Of a DNA stretch of 64,000 bases, positions 12,885 through 64,000 are shown piece after piece; within the stretch, counting starts at the first letter, position 1, and each line of letters starts with the position of its first letter. The position numbers were made by a program, and so were the translations under genes. The notes below the pieces were generated by a model, which saw only the letters and a program-made list of their open reading frames with translations, ran no database searches and was not told the DNA's origin. The DNA lies in assembly GCF_900636965.1 (NCBI RefSeq), contig NZ_LR134331.1, positions 620,001 to 684,000 on the forward strand, read 5' to 3'. This DNA is from Lacticaseibacillus rhamnosus. Its GTDB lineage: Bacteria; Bacillota; Bacilli; Lactobacillales; Lactobacillaceae.

Positions 12885-12970
12885 GCAGGTACCTGCGTGT
12901 AAGGACCTTAAGTGCGATGGCCAAAGCTCTGGTCGTCACGTCTGAGGCCACTTATGTTCTAGTTTATGCC
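12885..12970 (+). repeat. Degenerate copy (a) of the palindromic repeat, start of a four-copy cluster
   Basis: Recognisable through ACCTGCGTGTAAGGACCTTA and GTCTGAGGCCACTTATG. The inner arms no longer match each other (CTTAAGTGCG against CGTCTGAG), so this copy has decayed. A fragment of another unit end (ATGTTCTGGTTCAC) precedes it at about 12850. Confidence 0.7.
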
Positions 12971-12973
12971 CAT

Positions 12974-13075
12974 AACGCGCTCACCGGCGCAGGGATCTGC
13001 GTGTAAGGACCTCGAACGCGATGGCCAAGAGCGGGTCATCACGTCTGAGGCCGCTAATGTTCTGGTTTACGCCCA
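12974..13075 (+). repeat. Degenerate copy (b) of the palindromic repeat
   Basis: Begins AACGCGCTCACCGGCGCAGG and ends TTCTGGTTTACGCCCAT. The right arm has CTAATGTTCTGG instead of CTTACACTCCGA, a change shared with copy (a), suggesting these two arose by tandem duplication. Confidence 0.75.
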
Positions 13076-13076
13076 T

Positions 13077-13194
13077 AACGCGCTCACCGGCGCAGGGACC
13101 TGCATGTAAGGACCTTGGGCGCAATGGCCAAAAACCGGCCATCACGCCCAAGGCCGCTTACACTCCGGTCCCTAAGCGCGCCGGTTCGCGCTCA
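13077..13194 (+). repeat. Palindromic repeat copy (c)
   Basis: Intact unit. Inner arms CTTGGGCGCAATGGCC and GGCCATCACGCCCAAG pair fully when read as the opposite strand, counting two G-U pairs. Outer arms are TGTAAGG and CGCTTACA. Confidence 0.85.
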
Positions 13195-13202
13195 CGTTCT
13201 AA

Positions 13203-13322
13203 AACGCGTTCACAGTCGCAGAAATCTACGTGTAAGGACCTCCAGGCTAAATGGCCAAAGACCAGCCATTTAGCCTGGAGGCCACTTACACTCCGATTTC
13301 TAAGCGCTCCTGTTCACGCTCT
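13203..13322 (+). repeat. Palindromic repeat copy (d)
   Basis: Intact unit with different inner arms, CTCCAGGCTAAATGGC and GCCATTTAGCCTGGAG, fully Watson-Crick paired. It ends 63 bp before the ABC-F gene start. Confidence 0.85.
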
Positions 13323-17437: not shown

Positions 17438-17531
17438 AACGCGTTTACCGATACTTAATCGTGCCAGTTCATGCTCACTTTCTATAACGCGTTCCCCAGC
17501 GCAGACTTCTAACCGCGCCGGCTCACGCTCA
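17438..17531 (+). repeat. Two core-deleted derivatives of the palindromic repeat
   Basis: Segment 17438-17477 runs from AACGCGTTTACCG to CATGCTCAC. Segment 17486-17531 runs from AACGCGTTCCCCAGCGCAG directly into ACTTCTAACCGCGCC and CACGCTCA. The whole hairpin core is missing, with the join at the ACTTCT sequence shared by both arms. Confidence 0.75.
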
Positions 17532-23133: not shown

Positions 23134-24012
23134 ATGCCGAAAATCGATCAGATCTTTAACAATAACGTGGCGTTGGTTGAGCTAGACAACCATAGTCAAG
23201 CGGTTGTTAAGGGACGGGGGATCGCGTTTCAAAAGAAGCGTGGCGATGTGATTCCGGCTAAACAAATTGAAAAAATTTTCTACCTTGCAAGTGAAACTTC
23301 CCGCCAGAATCTGTACTTTTTACTTCGCAATATTCCGATCGACGTGGTGACGACCACTTATGAAATTATTGACGTTGCGCAAAAGCAATTTCACCTTAAG
23401 GTACTTGACTATATTTACATTACGTTAAGCGATCATATTTACGAAGCCTATAAACGTTATCAGAATGGAACGTATCAAGAGACGATGGTGCCGGATTTTC
23501 ATATTCAGTATCCTGCAGAGTATGCCGTAGCTAACCAAGCGTTGCAGATCATTGCAGCTAACCTTGGCGTAGCATTTCCACCTTCCGAAGTGAAAAATCT
23601 TGCCTTGCATTTCATCAATGCCAGCGGTGAAGACGACAACGAGCAGGCCTTTGATAAGAATAATGAGGCGTCATTAAGTCAACTGGTGCAACGCGTTTTG
23701 AAGCGGCATCGCATTACGAGATCGCAAACTAACGGCAATTATTATGATCGCTTCATGATTCACTTACAGTATCTGATTGACCGACTGCAGCGTGTTAATA
23801 CGGATGCTGTTGCCATTGTGCCCGAGGTGGCCAATGAATTAGAGCAAAATTATCCGCGGTCTTATCAGATTGCTTCGGAAATTTTTGATGAGATTAAGGA
23901 TCAGCTTTATCGCAACATGAGTGAAGACGAACGCTTATACTTTATCATTCATATTCAGCGGCTAATTAACGAAGCGCCTGCCCACGATCAAAAACAGGGC
24001 AAAAAATCATAA
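23134..24012 (+). CDS. lacT: Lactose operon antiterminator, BglG/LicT family
   Basis: RNA-binding antiterminator of 292 aa. Residues 1-55 form the CAT domain (NNNVALVELDNHSQAVVKGRGIAFQKKRGD); two PRD domains follow (about 65-170 and 171-280) with His residues that PTS proteins phosphorylate. It would bind the RAT at 23036-23064 and let transcription pass into lacEGF. The ATG at 23134 follows AGGAG by 8 nt. The gene is full length, unlike the truncated lacT I recall for L. rhamnosus GG. Its stop codon lies within a repeat remnant. Confidence 0.94.
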   Translation: MPKIDQIFNNNVALVELDNHSQAVVKGRGIAFQKKRGDVIPAKQIEKIFYLASETSRQNLYFLLRNIPIDVVTTTYEIIDVAQKQFHLKVLDYIYITLSDHIYEAYKRYQNGTYQETMVPDFHIQYPAEYAVANQALQIIAANLGVAFPPSEVKNLALHFINASGEDDNEQAFDKNNEASLSQLVQRVLKRHRITRSQTNGNYYDRFMIHLQYLIDRLQRVNTDAVAIVPEVANELEQNYPRSYQIASEIFDEIKDQLYRNMSEDERLYFIIHIQRLINEAPAHDQKQGKKS

Positions 24013-24047
24013 CGCGTTTGCTGGCTTGGAGGGCAGCATACGCTCAC
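24011..24047 (+). repeat. Repeat remnant between lacT and lacE
   Basis: Family ends AACGCGTTTGCTGGC and ATACGCTCACG remain without the core. The lacT stop codon TAA is part of it, and the lacE ribosome site (GGGAGG) follows at once. Confidence 0.6.
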
Positions 24048-24061
24048 GGGAGGAAAGTATC

Positions 24062-25774
24062 ATGAATAAGGTTTTCGATAAGCTAAAGCCGATTTTTGAA
24101 GCGATTGCGGCGAATAAGTATGTGTCCGCAATCCGTGATGGCTTTATTGCCTGTATGCCGATCATCATCTTCTCCAGTATCTTCATGATGATCGCTTATG
24201 TTCCTAATGCTTGGGGGTTTTACTGGCCTAAGAATGTGACCGATACCCTGATGATTGCTTACAACTACTCAATGGGATTGTTGGCATTATTTGTTGCCGG
24301 TACGACTGCAAAGAATTTAACCGACAGCAAGAATCTGGAATTACCCAAGACAAACCAGATCAATCCGGTTGCGGTCATTGTTGCTTCGGAAATCGCCTTT
24401 GTCATTTTATCGATTTTACCGCTTAAAACCGGGGTCGATTTAACCTACATGGGCACTCAGGGCTTGATCTGCGCTTATATCGTCGGCTTAATTGTGCCTA
24501 ATATTTACTACGTTTGTATTAAAAACAACGTCACGATTAAGTTGCCGCCACAGGTTCCAGGCAATATCTCCCAGTCATTTAAAGATTTAATTCCAATGGG
24601 GCTATCTGTTAGTGCTTTTTGGCTCTTTGGCGTTGGGTTTAAAGCAGCAACGGGAACGATCCTGCCGCGCTGGATTATTCAAGTGTTGTCGCCACTCTTC
24701 CAGGCCAGTGATTCTTATCTGGGGTTAGCGTTGATTGCCGGCGCGATGGCATTCTTCTGGTTCTGTGGGGTTCAGGGGCCTTCAATTGTCCAGCCGGCTG
24801 TTGTTCCGATCATGATTGCCAATACAGCGGCCAATCTCCAGCAATATCAAGCCGGACAGCATGTTTCACATGTGTTGGCGATGAACACGATGGATTATGT
24901 TATGAATTTTGGCGGTACGGGATCGACTCTGGTTGTCGCGTTCGTGATGCTGTTTGCGGCGCGTTCGGCACAATTAAAAGCAGTCGGGAAAGCGGCTTTT
25001 ATCCCGGGAACATTTTCTGTTAACGAGCCGGTACTTTTCGGGATGCCGATTATTATGAATCCGATGTTTTTCATTCCGTTTTTGGCAACGCCGATCGTGA
25101 ATGTTTGCCTGTTTAAGTTCTTTGTCAGTGTGTTAGGCATGAATAGCATGATCTACACCATGCCGTGGACGGTACCGGCACCCATCGGGATCTTAGTTTC
25201 AACCGGTTTTGCTCCACTGGCATTTGTCTTTGTATTGTTGACACTTGTGTTAGACGTCCTTATCTACTTCCCGTTTATTCGCGTGTACGATCGAACGCTT
25301 TTAGCCGAAGAAAAAGCTAAAGAAGATGTGATTGAAGGACAGGATACGGCGGTTTTGGCTGCCGATACGGTTGCACCACAAACGGCTGAGGTTCAGGTCG
25401 AAGCATCCGAAATGGCTGATGAAAAACCAGCGGCAGCGCATGATGAGAGTTTCTTCAAAAATAATGAAATTGACGTTCTGGTGCTTTGTGCCGGTGGTGG
25501 AACCAGTGGCATCTTAGCCAATGCGCTAAACAAGCTGTCTAAGGAGCGGGGGTTGAAGTTGTCCGCCGCGGCTCGGGCTTATGGACAGGATATGGACTTG
25601 ATCAAAGATATGAGTATGGTCATTCTGGCGCCACAAATGGAAAGTATGAAGGATAATTTGAAAAAGATTACCGATAAATATGGCGTTAAGTTGGTTACAA
25701 CCACTGGCCGCCAGTACATTGAACTGACAAACAACGGCGATATGGCACTGGATTTTGTTGAGTCCAATCTTTAG
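24062..25774 (+). CDS. lacE: Lactose-specific PTS EIICB component
   Basis: Membrane permease and phosphotransferase that imports lactose as lactose-6-phosphate (570 aa). The EIIC part (residues about 1-420) has eight to ten helices. A hydrophilic linker rich in Ala/Glu (about 430-465) leads to the EIIB domain with the phosphorylated Cys476 in LVLCAGGGTSG. The ATG at 24062 follows GGGAGGAAAG; a longer reading upstream has no ribosome site. It receives phosphate from LacF and passes product to LacG. Confidence 0.96.
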   Translation: MNKVFDKLKPIFEAIAANKYVSAIRDGFIACMPIIIFSSIFMMIAYVPNAWGFYWPKNVTDTLMIAYNYSMGLLALFVAGTTAKNLTDSKNLELPKTNQINPVAVIVASEIAFVILSILPLKTGVDLTYMGTQGLICAYIVGLIVPNIYYVCIKNNVTIKLPPQVPGNISQSFKDLIPMGLSVSAFWLFGVGFKAATGTILPRWIIQVLSPLFQASDSYLGLALIAGAMAFFWFCGVQGPSIVQPAVVPIMIANTAANLQQYQAGQHVSHVLAMNTMDYVMNFGGTGSTLVVAFVMLFAARSAQLKAVGKAAFIPGTFSVNEPVLFGMPIIMNPMFFIPFLATPIVNVCLFKFFVSVLGMNSMIYTMPWTVPAPIGILVSTGFAPLAFVFVLLTLVLDVLIYFPFIRVYDRTLLAEEKAKEDVIEGQDTAVLAADTVAPQTAEVQVEASEMADEKPAAAHDESFFKNNEIDVLVLCAGGGTSGILANALNKLSKERGLKLSAAARAYGQDMDLIKDMSMVILAPQMESMKDNLKKITDKYGVKLVTTTGRQYIELTNNGDMALDFVESNL

Positions 25775-25829: not shown

Positions 25830-27254
25830 ATGCGTAAACAATTACCCAAGGACTTTGTAATCGGTGGCGCAACTGCTGCTTACCAAGTTGAAGGGGCAAC
25901 CAAAGAAGACGGAAAAGGTCGAGTTCTTTGGGATGATTTTCTGGAAAAACAAGGGCGGTTTAGTCCTGACCCCGCCGCTGATTTTTATCATCGCTATGAT
26001 GAGGATTTGGCGTTAGCAGAAGCATATGGTCATCAAGTAATACGGCTTTCAATTGCCTGGTCGCGAATTTTTCCGGATGGTGCCGGGGCGGTGGAACCTC
26101 GTGGCGTTGCTTTCTATCATCGGCTCTTTGCTGCCTGTGCCAAGCATCATCTTATCCCGTTTGTAACGTTGCATCATTTTGATACACCAGAACGGTTACA
26201 TGCGATTGGTGACTGGCTGAGTCAAGAAATGCTGGAAGATTTTGTCGAGTACGCGCGGTTTTGCTTCGAAGAATTTCCGGAAATCAAACACTGGATTACG
26301 ATCAATGAACCAACGTCCATGGCAGTGCAACAATATACGAGCGGTACTTTTCCACCAGCGGAAACCGGTCATTTTGATAAAACATTTCAGGCCGAACATA
26401 ATCAAATCGTTGCCCATGCGCGTATTGTTAATTTGTACAAGTCGATGGGGCTAGATGGTGAAATCGGTATCGTGCATGCCTTGCAGACACCTTATCCATA
26501 TAGTGATTCGTCGGAAGATCAGCATGCCGCTGATTTACAGGATGCGTTGGAAAATCGCCTGTATTTAGATGGCACACTGGCAGGAGATTACGCCCCTAAG
26601 ACCTTGGCTTTGATCAAAGAAATTCTGGCAGCCAATCAACAACCGATGTTTAAGTACACTGATGAAGAGATGGCGGCTATTAAGAAGGCGGCGCACCAGC
26701 TTGATTTTGTTGGCGTTAATAATTACTTCAGCAAATGGCTGCGCGCTTATCACGGCAAGTCGGAAACGATTCATAATGGTGATGGCTCAAAGGGATCGTC
26801 AGTTGCCCGCCTTCACGGTATCGGCGAGGAGAAGAAGCCAGCCGGGATTGAGACAACGGATTGGGACTGGTCCATCTATCCGCGTGGTATGTATGACATG
26901 TTGATGCGGATTCACCAAGATTATCCGTTAGTACCAGCCATCTATGTCACCGAAAACGGTATTGGATTGAAAGAATCCTTACCAGCAGAAGTGACGCCAA
27001 ATACGGTCATCGCGGATCCCAAACGCATTGATTATTTGAAAAAATATTTAAGTGCCGTTGCAGATGCAATTCAGGCTGGTGCGAATGTAAAAGGCTACTT
27101 TGTTTGGTCACTGCAGGATCAGTTTTCCTGGACAAATGGTTATAGCAAACGGTACGGATTGTTTTTCGTCGACTTTCCGACGCAAAAACGTTATGTCAAG
27201 CAAAGTGCCGAATGGTTAAAACAAGTTAGCCAAACGCATGTGATTCCGGAATAA
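25830..27254 (+). CDS. lacG: 6-phospho-beta-galactosidase (GH1)
   Basis: Splits lactose-6-phosphate into glucose and galactose-6-phosphate (474 aa). The acid/base is Glu160 in TINEPTS and the nucleophile Glu375 in YVTENGIG, the same residue numbers as in the characterised S. aureus enzyme. The phosphate-binding region near the C-terminus reads TNGYSKRYGLFFVDF. ATG at 25830 follows TAGGAGGAAG. The gene is intact. The stop codon TAA merges into the first bases of a palindromic repeat, and two full repeats separate it from lacF. Confidence 0.97.
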   Translation: MRKQLPKDFVIGGATAAYQVEGATKEDGKGRVLWDDFLEKQGRFSPDPAADFYHRYDEDLALAEAYGHQVIRLSIAWSRIFPDGAGAVEPRGVAFYHRLFAACAKHHLIPFVTLHHFDTPERLHAIGDWLSQEMLEDFVEYARFCFEEFPEIKHWITINEPTSMAVQQYTSGTFPPAETGHFDKTFQAEHNQIVAHARIVNLYKSMGLDGEIGIVHALQTPYPYSDSSEDQHAADLQDALENRLYLDGTLAGDYAPKTLALIKEILAANQQPMFKYTDEEMAAIKKAAHQLDFVGVNNYFSKWLRAYHGKSETIHNGDGSKGSSVARLHGIGEEKKPAGIETTDWDWSIYPRGMYDMLMRIHQDYPLVPAIYVTENGIGLKESLPAEVTPNTVIADPKRIDYLKKYLSAVADAIQAGANVKGYFVWSLQDQFSWTNGYSKRYGLFFVDFPTQKRYVKQSAEWLKQVSQTHVIPE

Positions 27255-27518
27255 GCGCGCCGGCTCGCGCTCATATTAACGCGCTCCCCGGCGCAGGAAT
27301 CTGCGTGTAAGGACCTGGGTCGCAATGGCCAAAGAGCGGGCCATTTCGCCCGAGGCCGCTTACACTCCGACTTCTACCCGCGCCGGCTCGCGCTCACATT
27401 AACGCGCTCCCCGGCGCAGGAATCTGCGTGTAAGGACCTGGATCGCAATGGCCAAAGAGCGGCCATCACGCCCCAGGCCGCTTACACTCCGATCCCTAAG
27501 CGCGCCGGCTCGCGCTCA
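27252..27518 (+). repeat. Half copy plus two full palindromic repeats between lacG and lacF
   Basis: 27252-27273 is a repeat end (AAGCGCGCCGGCTCGCGCTCA). 27278-27396 and 27401-27518 are full units whose inner arms differ (CTGGGTCGCAATGGCC and CTGGATCGCAATGGCC on the left). Read on the opposite strand, the second has one mismatch in 17 inner pairs and the first three. They fill the whole gap inside a sugar operon. Confidence 0.9.
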
Positions 27519-27542
27519 CTTTTTTAAAATGGAGGTTGAATT

Positions 27543-27878
27543 ATGGCGACGAGAGAAGAGATTTCGATGGTTGGGTTTGCACTTGTGGCTTATGCAGGGG
27601 ATGCTCGGACTGCGGCTTTGCGTGCTTTGAATGCTGCAGAAGCGGGTGACTTTGAAGGAGCCGAGGCCAAACTTGACGAAGCGCAAAAAGATATTAATGA
27701 AGCACATAATCAACAGACGCAATTGTTAAGCCAAGAAGCAGGCGGAGCGGAAATGGATGTGACTTTTATCATGGTGCATGGGCAGGATACGTTAATGACC
27801 ACCATGTTGCTTATTGATCAGTCTCGTTACATGATTCGAATGCTTAAACGTATCAAGCAACTCGAAGACAAGCAATAA
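27543..27878 (+). CDS. lacF: Lactose-specific PTS EIIA component
   Basis: Cytoplasmic trimeric phosphocarrier (111 aa) that takes phosphate from HPr and gives it to Cys476 of LacE. The active His79 lies in IMVHGQDTLMT; the rest is the three-helix bundle typical of the EIIA-Lac family. The ATG at 27543 follows GGAGGTTGAAT. It is last in the lac operon; a terminator follows at 27972. Separated from lacG by 288 bp of repeats, its expression relative to lacEG may be altered by those structures. Confidence 0.95.
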   Translation: MATREEISMVGFALVAYAGDARTAALRALNAAEAGDFEGAEAKLDEAQKDINEAHNQQTQLLSQEAGGAEMDVTFIMVHGQDTLMTTMLLIDQSRYMIRMLKRIKQLEDKQ

Positions 27879-49857: not shown

Positions 49858-50018
49858 CCACTTACACTCCGGTTTCTAAGCGGCCCTGTTCGCGCTCTGA
49901 AACGCGTTCGCCAACCCAGAAACCTGCACATAAGGACCTCAGACCCCAATGGCAAAGCCCGGCCATTGGGATCTGAGGCCACTTATGCTCCGGTTTCTAA
50001 CCGGGTTGGCTCACGCTC
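49858..50018 (+). repeat. Half copy plus one full palindromic repeat after sbcC
   Basis: 49858-49897 is the right half of a unit (CCACTTACACTCCGG onwards). 49901-50018 is a full unit with inner arms CTCAGACCCCAATGGC and GCCATTGGGATCTGAG; all 17 inner pairs form on the minus strand with one G-U. Confidence 0.85.
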
Positions 50019-50309: not shown

Positions 50310-50311
50310 TA

Positions 50312-50544
50312 AGCGCGAGCCAGCGCGGTTAGAAGTCGGAGTGTAAGTGTCCTTGGGCGTGATGGCCGGTCTTTGGCCATTACGCTCAAGGTCCTTACAC
50401 GCAGACTTCTGCGCTGGGGAGCGCGTTATAGAAAGTGAGCGTGAGTCAGCCCGGTCAGAAGCCGGAGTGTAAGTGGCCTTAAGCGTGATGGCCGGTCTTT
50501 GACCATTGCGCCCAAGGTCCTTACATGCAGGCTTCTGGGCTGGC
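50312..50544 (-). repeat. Two palindromic repeats in opposite orientation
   Basis: Units 50312-50428 and 50436-50544, inverted relative to most other copies. Inner arms CCTTGGGCGTGATGGCC/GGCCATTACGCTCAAGG pair fully with two G-T. The second has three mismatches (AA opposite CC, and C-A). Confidence 0.87.
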
Positions 50545-50735
50545 GAACGCGTTATGCTGGAGGCTGCCTGATTACTTACAACTCTCTGGAATGGCGAAGT
50601 TCGTAAATGACGATAGCTATGAAGATTCGAGGTATTGCAGACCATTTTGACATCATCGGTATAGCTGCTATTGACAAGAAAAATAAAGTGAACCATTGCC
50701 GCGTTTCCTGTTTTAAAAACTTTTTTTGAAAAAAT

Positions 50736-54547: not shown

Positions 54548-54717
54548 TAAGCGCGCGGTTCACGCTCACATTAACGCGTTTGCCGGCGCAGCAATCTGCG
54601 TGTAAGGACCTGAGTCGCAATGGCCAAAGAGCGGCCATCACGCCTCAGGCCGCTTACACTCCGATTGCTAAGCGCGCCGGCTCACGCTCATATTAACGCG
54701 TTCGCCGGCTCACGCTC
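54548..54717 (+). repeat. Repeat cluster: end fragment, full unit and minimal derivative
   Basis: 54548-54568 is a unit end, and 54573-54690 is a full unit with inner arms CTGAGTCGCAATGGCC and GGCCATCACGCCTCAG. 54695-54717 (AACGCGTTCGCCGGCTCACG...) joins the left terminus directly to the right terminus through GCCGG, the shortest form seen. Confidence 0.85.
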
Positions 54718-59340: not shown

Positions 59341-59458
59341 AACGCGCTCACAGTCGCAGCAATCTGCGTGTAAGGACCTCAGACGCAATGGCCAAAGCCC
59401 GGCCATCACGTCTGAGGCCGCTTACACTCCGACTTCTAACCGCGCCGGCTCGCGCTCA
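59341..59458 (+). repeat. Full palindromic repeat
   Basis: A clean copy: termini AACGCGCTCAC and CGGCTCGCGCTCA, outer arms GTGTAAGG and CGCTTACAC, inner arms CTCAGACGCAATGGCC and GGCCATCACGTCTGAG. All inner positions pair on the minus strand with two G-U pairs. Confidence 0.9.
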
Positions 59459-63804: not shown

Positions 63805-64000
63805 TGAGCGTGAGCTGGCGCGGTTAAGGATCGGAGTGTAAGCGGCCTTGGACGTGATGGCCGGGCTTTGGCCATTGCGTCCAAGGTCCTTACACGCAGA
63901 TCCTTGCGCCAGCGAGCGCGTTATGATCAAGCGTGAACCGGCGCGGTTAGGAGCCGGAGTGTAAGTGGCCTTGGACGTGATGGCCGGGGGCTTTGACCAT
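63805..64000 (-). repeat. Two palindromic repeats, the second cut by the window end
   Basis: 63805-63923 is a full unit in inverted orientation with inner arms CCTTGGACGTGATGGCC/GGCCATTGCGTCCAAGG, fully paired with two G-T. A second unit starts at 63929 and runs past the window. Confidence 0.88.

Follow-up and report, generated by a model that had tools for sequence, protein, structure and literature searches.

REPIN and REP sequences with their RAYT transposases are described as high-copy, long intergenic hairpins with compensatory changes, for which movement as single-stranded DNA is proposed, and their clusters are described as near-identical tandem copies (passages of PMC3116915). ERIC (127 bp) and the pneumococcal BOX, RUP and SPRITE repeats are imperfect palindromes of intergenic spread that sometimes lie inside operons; in the available passages of two sources, ERIC is reported to lower upstream mRNA stability in Yersinia (PMC2229807), BIMEs are reported as attenuators (PMC3049150), and MITEs are described as A+T-rich (PMC2229807, PMC3049150). 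In the attC sites of integrons, as presented in part of PMC2727003, structure is kept more than sequence, unpaired bases are conserved, and one strand is the folded substrate. Cozzuto et al. surveyed bacterial repeat families with a common hairpin, and the available passages of that survey name one lactobacillus, L. johnsonii, and no casei-group genome (PMC2267715).

Here we analyze the lac operon in a window of 64,000 nucleotides of Lacticaseibacillus rhamnosus DNA (bases 620001–684000 of a 2.99-Mb contig; genome G000), in which the lacG–lacF gap is occupied by units of a hairpin element. Unlike REPINs, the element is ~117 nt long, has two conserved asymmetric loops, forms mixed arrays in G000, and occurs in three carriers in which no Y1 transposase was found. 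It resembles ERIC, BOX, RUP and SPRITE in size, shape and spread, but is set apart from their descriptions in the cited passages by being G+C-richer than its region, by its same-orientation arrays, and by its one-strand fold. In contrast to integron attC sites, no cassettes lie between the units, and neither attC core motif, RYYYAAC or GTTRRRY, was found in G000 units near the left end (0 of 70) or near the right (0 of 70). An Rfam search gave no match at the gathering score in the window and none up to an E value of 1 around the lac gap, and at 14 related loci it gave only ten sub-threshold matches, of microRNA type. The open-licence literature, judged by titles and abstract openings and with most subscription papers outside its scope, yielded no paper on such a lactobacillus element. 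The hairpin repeats apparently form an undescribed superfamily. If this is right, a structure-conserved repeat superfamily spans bacteria of probiotic and food use; four casei-group genomes other than G000 each show no fewer than 149 model matches.

Two hairpin units occupy the lacG–lacF gap

The operon is encoded on the forward strand, and the identities of LacT, LacE, LacG and LacF are backed by Pfam. The antiterminator gene lacT (23134–24012; CAT_RBD and PRD domains) is followed by lacE (EIICB; 24062–25774), lacG (6-phospho-beta-galactosidase; 25830–27254) and lacF (EIIA; 27543–27878), the last with a GGAGG motif at 27531–27535. For lacE, the ATG at 24062 yields an N-terminus (MNKVFDKL) shared with relatives; the start given in the list of open reading frames is a TTG at 24026. 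LacG, also assigned by comparison with relatives, is full length, with the match extending to residue 474 in its eight closest relatives.

As stated in the first-pass annotation, the distance from the lacG stop codon (TAA, 27252–27254) to the lacF ATG (27543) is 288 bp, and this gap is made almost wholly of repeats, with 27256–27518 covered by a remnant and two units. The remnant is a 22-nt right end (27252–27273, forward strand) that is 100% identical to the end of unit 2 (27497–27518). It opens with the three bases of the lacG stop codon, which confirms that the TAA begins a repeat end. The two palindromic repeats noted earlier correspond to unit 1 (27278–27395, 118 nt) and unit 2 (27401–27517, 117 nt), both on the forward strand and each a single imperfect palindrome by folding. 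They scored 119.6 and 129.6 bits, respectively, with the covariance model R1, whose training set includes both. A unit begins with AACGCG and ends with CGCTC, and two asymmetric loops break its stems. The direct copies in the gap are ~122–123 bp apart, with 98% identity across their first 84 nt and 85% across the 62 nt that follow. An 18-nt end is present in three exact copies (27256–27273, 27379–27396 and 27501–27518) and, with up to three mismatches, nine times in the window, where 0.05 would be expected. Because each lac unit has the other as its closest copy (95%; next best 90–91%), the pair may well be a duplication.

The lac units belong to a high-copy family

The element recurs throughout the genome. 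A 16-nt core with up to two mismatches gave 293 pattern matches in G000, 152 on the plus and 141 on the minus strand, compared with 0 and 1 on the two strands for the reversed pattern used as a control. All 150 candidates scored with R1 in G000 matched at E ≤ 6e-22. The unit of ~117 nt is thus present in some hundreds of genome copies, which keep the same internal-loop bases, and its G+C content is 0.59 compared with 0.47 for the region.

In the window, R1 identified forward-strand arrays or units at 12891–13321 (four units, the first partial), 49901–50018 (a single unit), 54573–54689 (one unit with end remnants on both sides) and 59341–59457 (a single unit). Two remnants lie on the same strand at 17438–17530 (17438–17476, weak with an E value of 0.2, and 17486–17530). 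Arrays of two units were found on the reverse strand at 50311–50553 and at 63806–64000, where the window end cuts the second unit. In 400-kb segments, G000 has 77 units in 39 arrays, compared with 38 units in G005 and 36 in G017.

A run of five A within 14 nt after the array was seen at 13 of the 39 arrays of the G000 segment and a run of five T at 4 of 39; either run occurs in ~2.3% of random 14-mers from the segment. The A runs may reflect insertion beside terminators or a target preference. With regard to the replichores, 68 of 114 arrays built from the best 150 matches point in the leading direction (p 0.049), a bias too weak for use.

Distribution among Lactobacillales

By blastn, matches were found in 5 of 30 genomes of the genus and 13 of 397 of the family, as well as in 14 plasmid records, nine from Pediococcus and five from Lacticaseibacillus. 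A phage collection contained no match to the element, and megablast found no plasmid copy of the lac region. With R1, all or nearly all candidates scored in casei-group relatives matched (149 of 150 in G005; 150 of 150 each in G006, G017 and G028). In two other genera, with 150 candidates scored per genome, 150 matched in each of G220, G329 and G338, 145 in G281 and 120 in G322. Ten Lacticaseibacillus genomes empty by blastn were intended as a control, and seven of them gave 2 to 32 R1 matches, several in same-strand arrays ~124 bp apart, indicating that blastn had missed diverged relatives; the other three (G007, G008 and G010) had no R1 match. With matches in 7 of 10 of the intended control set, R1 is without a clean negative control.

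A broader model, R2, was built from 34 aligned units, which come from G000, five further Lacticaseibacillus genomes and another genus. With the best 18 candidates per genome considered, R2 gave matches in 27 of the 198 Lactobacillales genomes sampled, a count that includes G000 and covers seven families and 18 of 54 genera. Twelve of the 27 have at least six matches among their best 18 candidates; the remaining 15, with only one or two, are tentative. An identical unit with identical flanks is present at L277 (G002) and at L291 (G502, on a 105-kb contig), which belong to two different families of the order. This identity indicates that transfer between families occurs.

Paired changes preserve the stems and unpaired bases persist

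The stems vary in sequence while retaining their pairing. Among the 48 units of G000 from which R1 was built, 165 cells had changed on both sides of a pair, compared with 57.2 ± 8.5 after shuffling and at most 23 when the partner was slid, and none of 500 shuffles reached the covariation score. The set from another genus (A2, 76 rows) gave 514 double changes against 142.8 ± 13.5 in an alignment that was fitted to the structure and in which 11 of the 76 rows are reverse duplicates; the 11 rows were kept for this count and removed for the counts of mispairs, junctions and strand folds. Across lineages, the 34 units gave 316 double changes against 105 ± 9.

The loops are likewise conserved. In the alignment of units from three genomes, from which scores below 55 were dropped (121 of 151 kept), left loop 2 reads GGACC opposite GGCCAC or GGCCGC in 101 units, and loop 1 has been homogenized in 5 of the 121. 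The bases that recur across lineages are CAG on the left side, TAA or TTA within the inner stem, and CTAA-CG on the right side. In the plasmid unit L130, the right arm is the exact complement of the left arm, which marks template switching. One unit is found with near-identical flanks in three species (G000:C1:838065–838162, G017:C1:822186 and G005 segment position 394141), where its outer stem differs by paired changes; it adjoins what we take to be the 3' end of 23S rRNA. Paired changes can also result from template switching. On the present reading, the family cautions that covariation in bacterial intergenic hairpins need not denote a functional RNA.

Orientation, mispairs and predicted strand asymmetry

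If the sense RNA were selected, mostly G–U mispairs on the transcribed strand and a single facing relative to genes would be expected. Between co-directional genes, 34 arrays are oriented with and 27 against the genes (p 0.44; 13/11 in G000, 10/9 in G017 and 11/7 in G005). Among the 39 arrays of the G000 segment, nine lie between divergent and six between convergent genes. On the transcribed strand (32 pairs, 79 units), 73 G–U and 86 A–C cells were counted, with no G–U excess. For the strand of the element itself, the full structure of 40 pairs gave 178 G–U and 166 A–C cells, unevenly distributed among G000 (136/94), G005 (13/38) and G017 (29/34); the corresponding counts were 16/48 in the other-genus set and 43/75 in a third set. 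An own-strand G–U excess in a first, smaller alifold structure (129 vs 66) vanished over the full structure and in G005.

The two strands differ in predicted stability. Under DNA parameters, the better fold is that of the strand complementary to the family orientation in 48/48 units of G000, 63/65 and 47/48 units of two further sets, and 18/20 order-wide units; in total, the other strand is predicted to be the more stable in 176 of 181 units, the one-strand preference described for attC, although units within a lineage share ancestry and are not independent trials. RNA parameters gave 48/48, 63/65, 48/48 and 19/20. Swapping the unpaired bases for their complements flips the mean strand difference from −6.8 to +4.3 kcal/mol; the T–C and A–C mispairs of the loops on one strand are G–A and G–T on the other. 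The asymmetry makes possible a direct test of whether single-stranded DNA is the working form.

Arrays, turnover and plasmid sites

Neighboring units share the same orientation at 116 of 118 junctions (55/57, 34/34 and 27/27); the two exceptions, mixed-orientation arrays that are pairs including low-scoring matches, were retained in the count. In G000, likeness is 0.799 within and 0.779 between arrays, and for 15 of 57 units the best match lies within the same array. With within-array likeness hardly raised, most G000 arrays do not stem from simple duplication. The corresponding values, from few pairs, are 0.845 and 0.794 in G005 and 0.856 and 0.723 in G017; together with the mutual closeness of the lac units, they indicate that tandem duplication contributes.

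Sites turn over between species. An element was present at the matching place of G017 for 9 of 35 anchored G000 arrays, and in the reverse comparison for 7 of 27, counts in which decayed remnants would be missed. These totals comprise 35 of 39 and 27 of 30 arrays, with those lacking two anchored flanks or having a gap of at least 800 excluded. The flanks of G000 and G017 are too diverged for an exact empty site or target duplication to be read, and the plasmid sites keep stumps.

Plasmid sites with ~98% identical flanks carry differing units, arrays or stumps. The PTS IIB–IIC gap holds one unit type in L126 and L128, another in L135, and only a left stump in L136. The DUF956–IID gap holds a stump and two units in L129, one unit in L130, and a short stump in L132–L134, three of six such records. 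These differences are explained by growth of a mixed array followed by deletion between ends, and can also come from contraction of a mixed array; cassette exchange on plasmids was set aside, as mixed-array contraction accounts equally well for the differences. With the lac operon, these two plasmid operons bring the PTS operons carrying the element to three. Beside a LacI-type regulator gene, the hairpin center has been lost in L138 (plasmid NZ_CP080338.1) compared with L127, the plasmids being otherwise 99.8% identical there.

The lacG–lacF transcript

For RNA of the whole lacG–lacF gap, the predicted folding energy is −132.1 kcal/mol, a value equaled by none of 200 shuffles (z −4.5). The sense transcript is nonetheless the weaker of the two predicted folds, with a mean for the two units of −58.9 compared with −73.7 (RNA parameters). 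A separate lacF promoter, which the first-pass annotation had named as grounds against an effect of the hairpins, was sought by a consensus scan of the gap, and no promoter-like site was found on the sense strand. Given the strong hairpins in the operon, the strong predicted fold and this absence of a sense promoter, a polar or processing effect is possible; the array might act on lacF through attenuation, processing or protection of the lacG 3' end. Unit 2 ends in a small G+C stem-loop (27499–27525, forward strand; stem 27499–27516, then six T at 27520–27525) that resembles a terminator, but such a site is not above shuffles (1 found, mean 1.4) and was dropped as a terminator at the array end. 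The lac operon offers a natural test of a long hairpin array between co-transcribed genes against their output.

A proposed mobile hairpin element in the lac operon

We propose, with a probability of roughly 0.58, that the lacG–lacF array is a mobile, strand-asymmetric hairpin element that inserted into the operon, and not a switch made for it. The proposal draws on the presence, copy number, covariation, orientation and turnover between species of the units, and on their predicted strand asymmetry. In a plausible mechanism, the element would be recognized and moved as folded single-stranded DNA in the form of its more stable 'bottom' strand, here the complement of the lac transcript, by a putative recombinase or transposase. 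New units would tend to be added, with matching orientation, beside a copy already in place, and arrays would shrink through deletion between ends. The landing in lac would be recent, postdating the divergence from the sampled relatives, and may have been tolerated because lacF retains a ribosome-binding site of its own.

The hairpins might instead constitute an mRNA element of the operon that attenuates, processes or protects the lacG–lacF transcript and thereby sets the LacF level. Strong predicted folds of the sense RNA, the location inside the operon, the ribosome-binding site of lacF, and the operon-repeat precedents of ERIC in Yersinia and the BIMEs in the passages cited above (PMC2229807, PMC3049150) are consistent with this. 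The first-pass annotation had likewise suggested that the hairpins may govern how much EIIA is made relative to LacE and LacG. Its strong hairpins stand, and the gap transcript is predicted to fold strongly, but an operon-specific purpose was not borne out: the family is dispersed in some hundreds of copies, unbiased in orientation relative to flanking genes and with arrays also in divergent gaps (9/39 in the G000 segment); the eight related lacG–lacF gaps are without an R1 match; and the transcribed strand is not skewed to G–U, the sense fold is the weaker one, and the terminator-like site is at chance level. We consider an mRNA element quite improbable, and any effect of the array on lacF would be a by-product. 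It is also hardly probable that the units are old inert repeats, with stems kept perfect by arm-to-arm template switching and no selection on structure. The restoration of pairing as Watson–Crick with few wobbles (16 G–U in 2517 cells of the other-genus set) and the arm-copying events (L130 and 5 of 121 units) would suit such an origin, for which a template-switching mechanism is described in part of PMC8794818. Arm copying would, however, also erase the asymmetric loops, which are kept in 101 of the 121 units, and CAG, TAA and CTAA-CG recur across lineages.

Movement could also have followed described routes. As a classic MITE, the element would be double-stranded DNA with terminal inverted repeats, moved like ERIC or RUP by an insertion-sequence transposase. 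The short unit (~117 bp), its pairing ends, the intergenic sites, and the many copies, also on plasmids, fit this description, whereas the G+C content runs counter to the A+T-richness of MITEs in the passages of PMC2229807 and PMC3049150, the conserved unpaired bases and one-strand stability would be left unexplained, and no partner insertion sequence emerged from the comparisons made; we regard a MITE as unlikely. A REPIN-like element whose movement depends on a Y1 (REP-associated) transposase would account for hairpins with compensatory changes and for single-stranded-DNA movement, as proposed for REPINs in the passages of PMC3116915. However, a search for Y1_Tnp (PF01797) found no match in carriers G000, G005 and G017, while the domain is present in carriers G006 (seven) and G028 (one) and in 11 genomes that are not carriers by blastn; and REPIN clusters are near-identical tandem copies in those passages, whereas arrays in G000 are mixed. 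This route appears highly improbable.

For a mobile hairpin moved as single-stranded DNA, a more specific version is possible but doubtful: the repeats may be recombination or transposition sites, attC-like but cassette-free, of a new Lactobacillales enzyme that acts on the folded bottom strand. Such an enzyme might account for same-orientation arrays of different hairpins at hundreds of intergenic places and on plasmids.

The lac operon in related genomes

The lacG–lacF gaps of eight related loci (L040–L047) contain no R1 match up to an E value of 1. In L044–L047, from four other Lacticaseibacillus species, this gap is ~115–150 nt, longer than in the casei group; at least three of the four share a GTATCGAAC-like motif, and neither R1 nor R2 matched there. 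In the R1 or R2 searches of named LacG loci, only L139 (L. zeae) matched, between lacT and lacE, and G005 carries the same element in its lacT–lacE gap. By eye, against L139 and G005, the lacT–lacE gap of the window contains a remnant consisting of left and right ends only (24009–24047, forward strand; no R1 match). The lac operon thus appears, on sequence comparison, to have been hit at two gaps, each next to a stop codon. Both insertions abut a TAA, the lacT stop overlapping the left end of this remnant and the lacG stop starting the right-end remnant. The lacT–lacE element is whole in G005, and in G017 it is interrupted or accompanied by ~1 kb of additional sequence.
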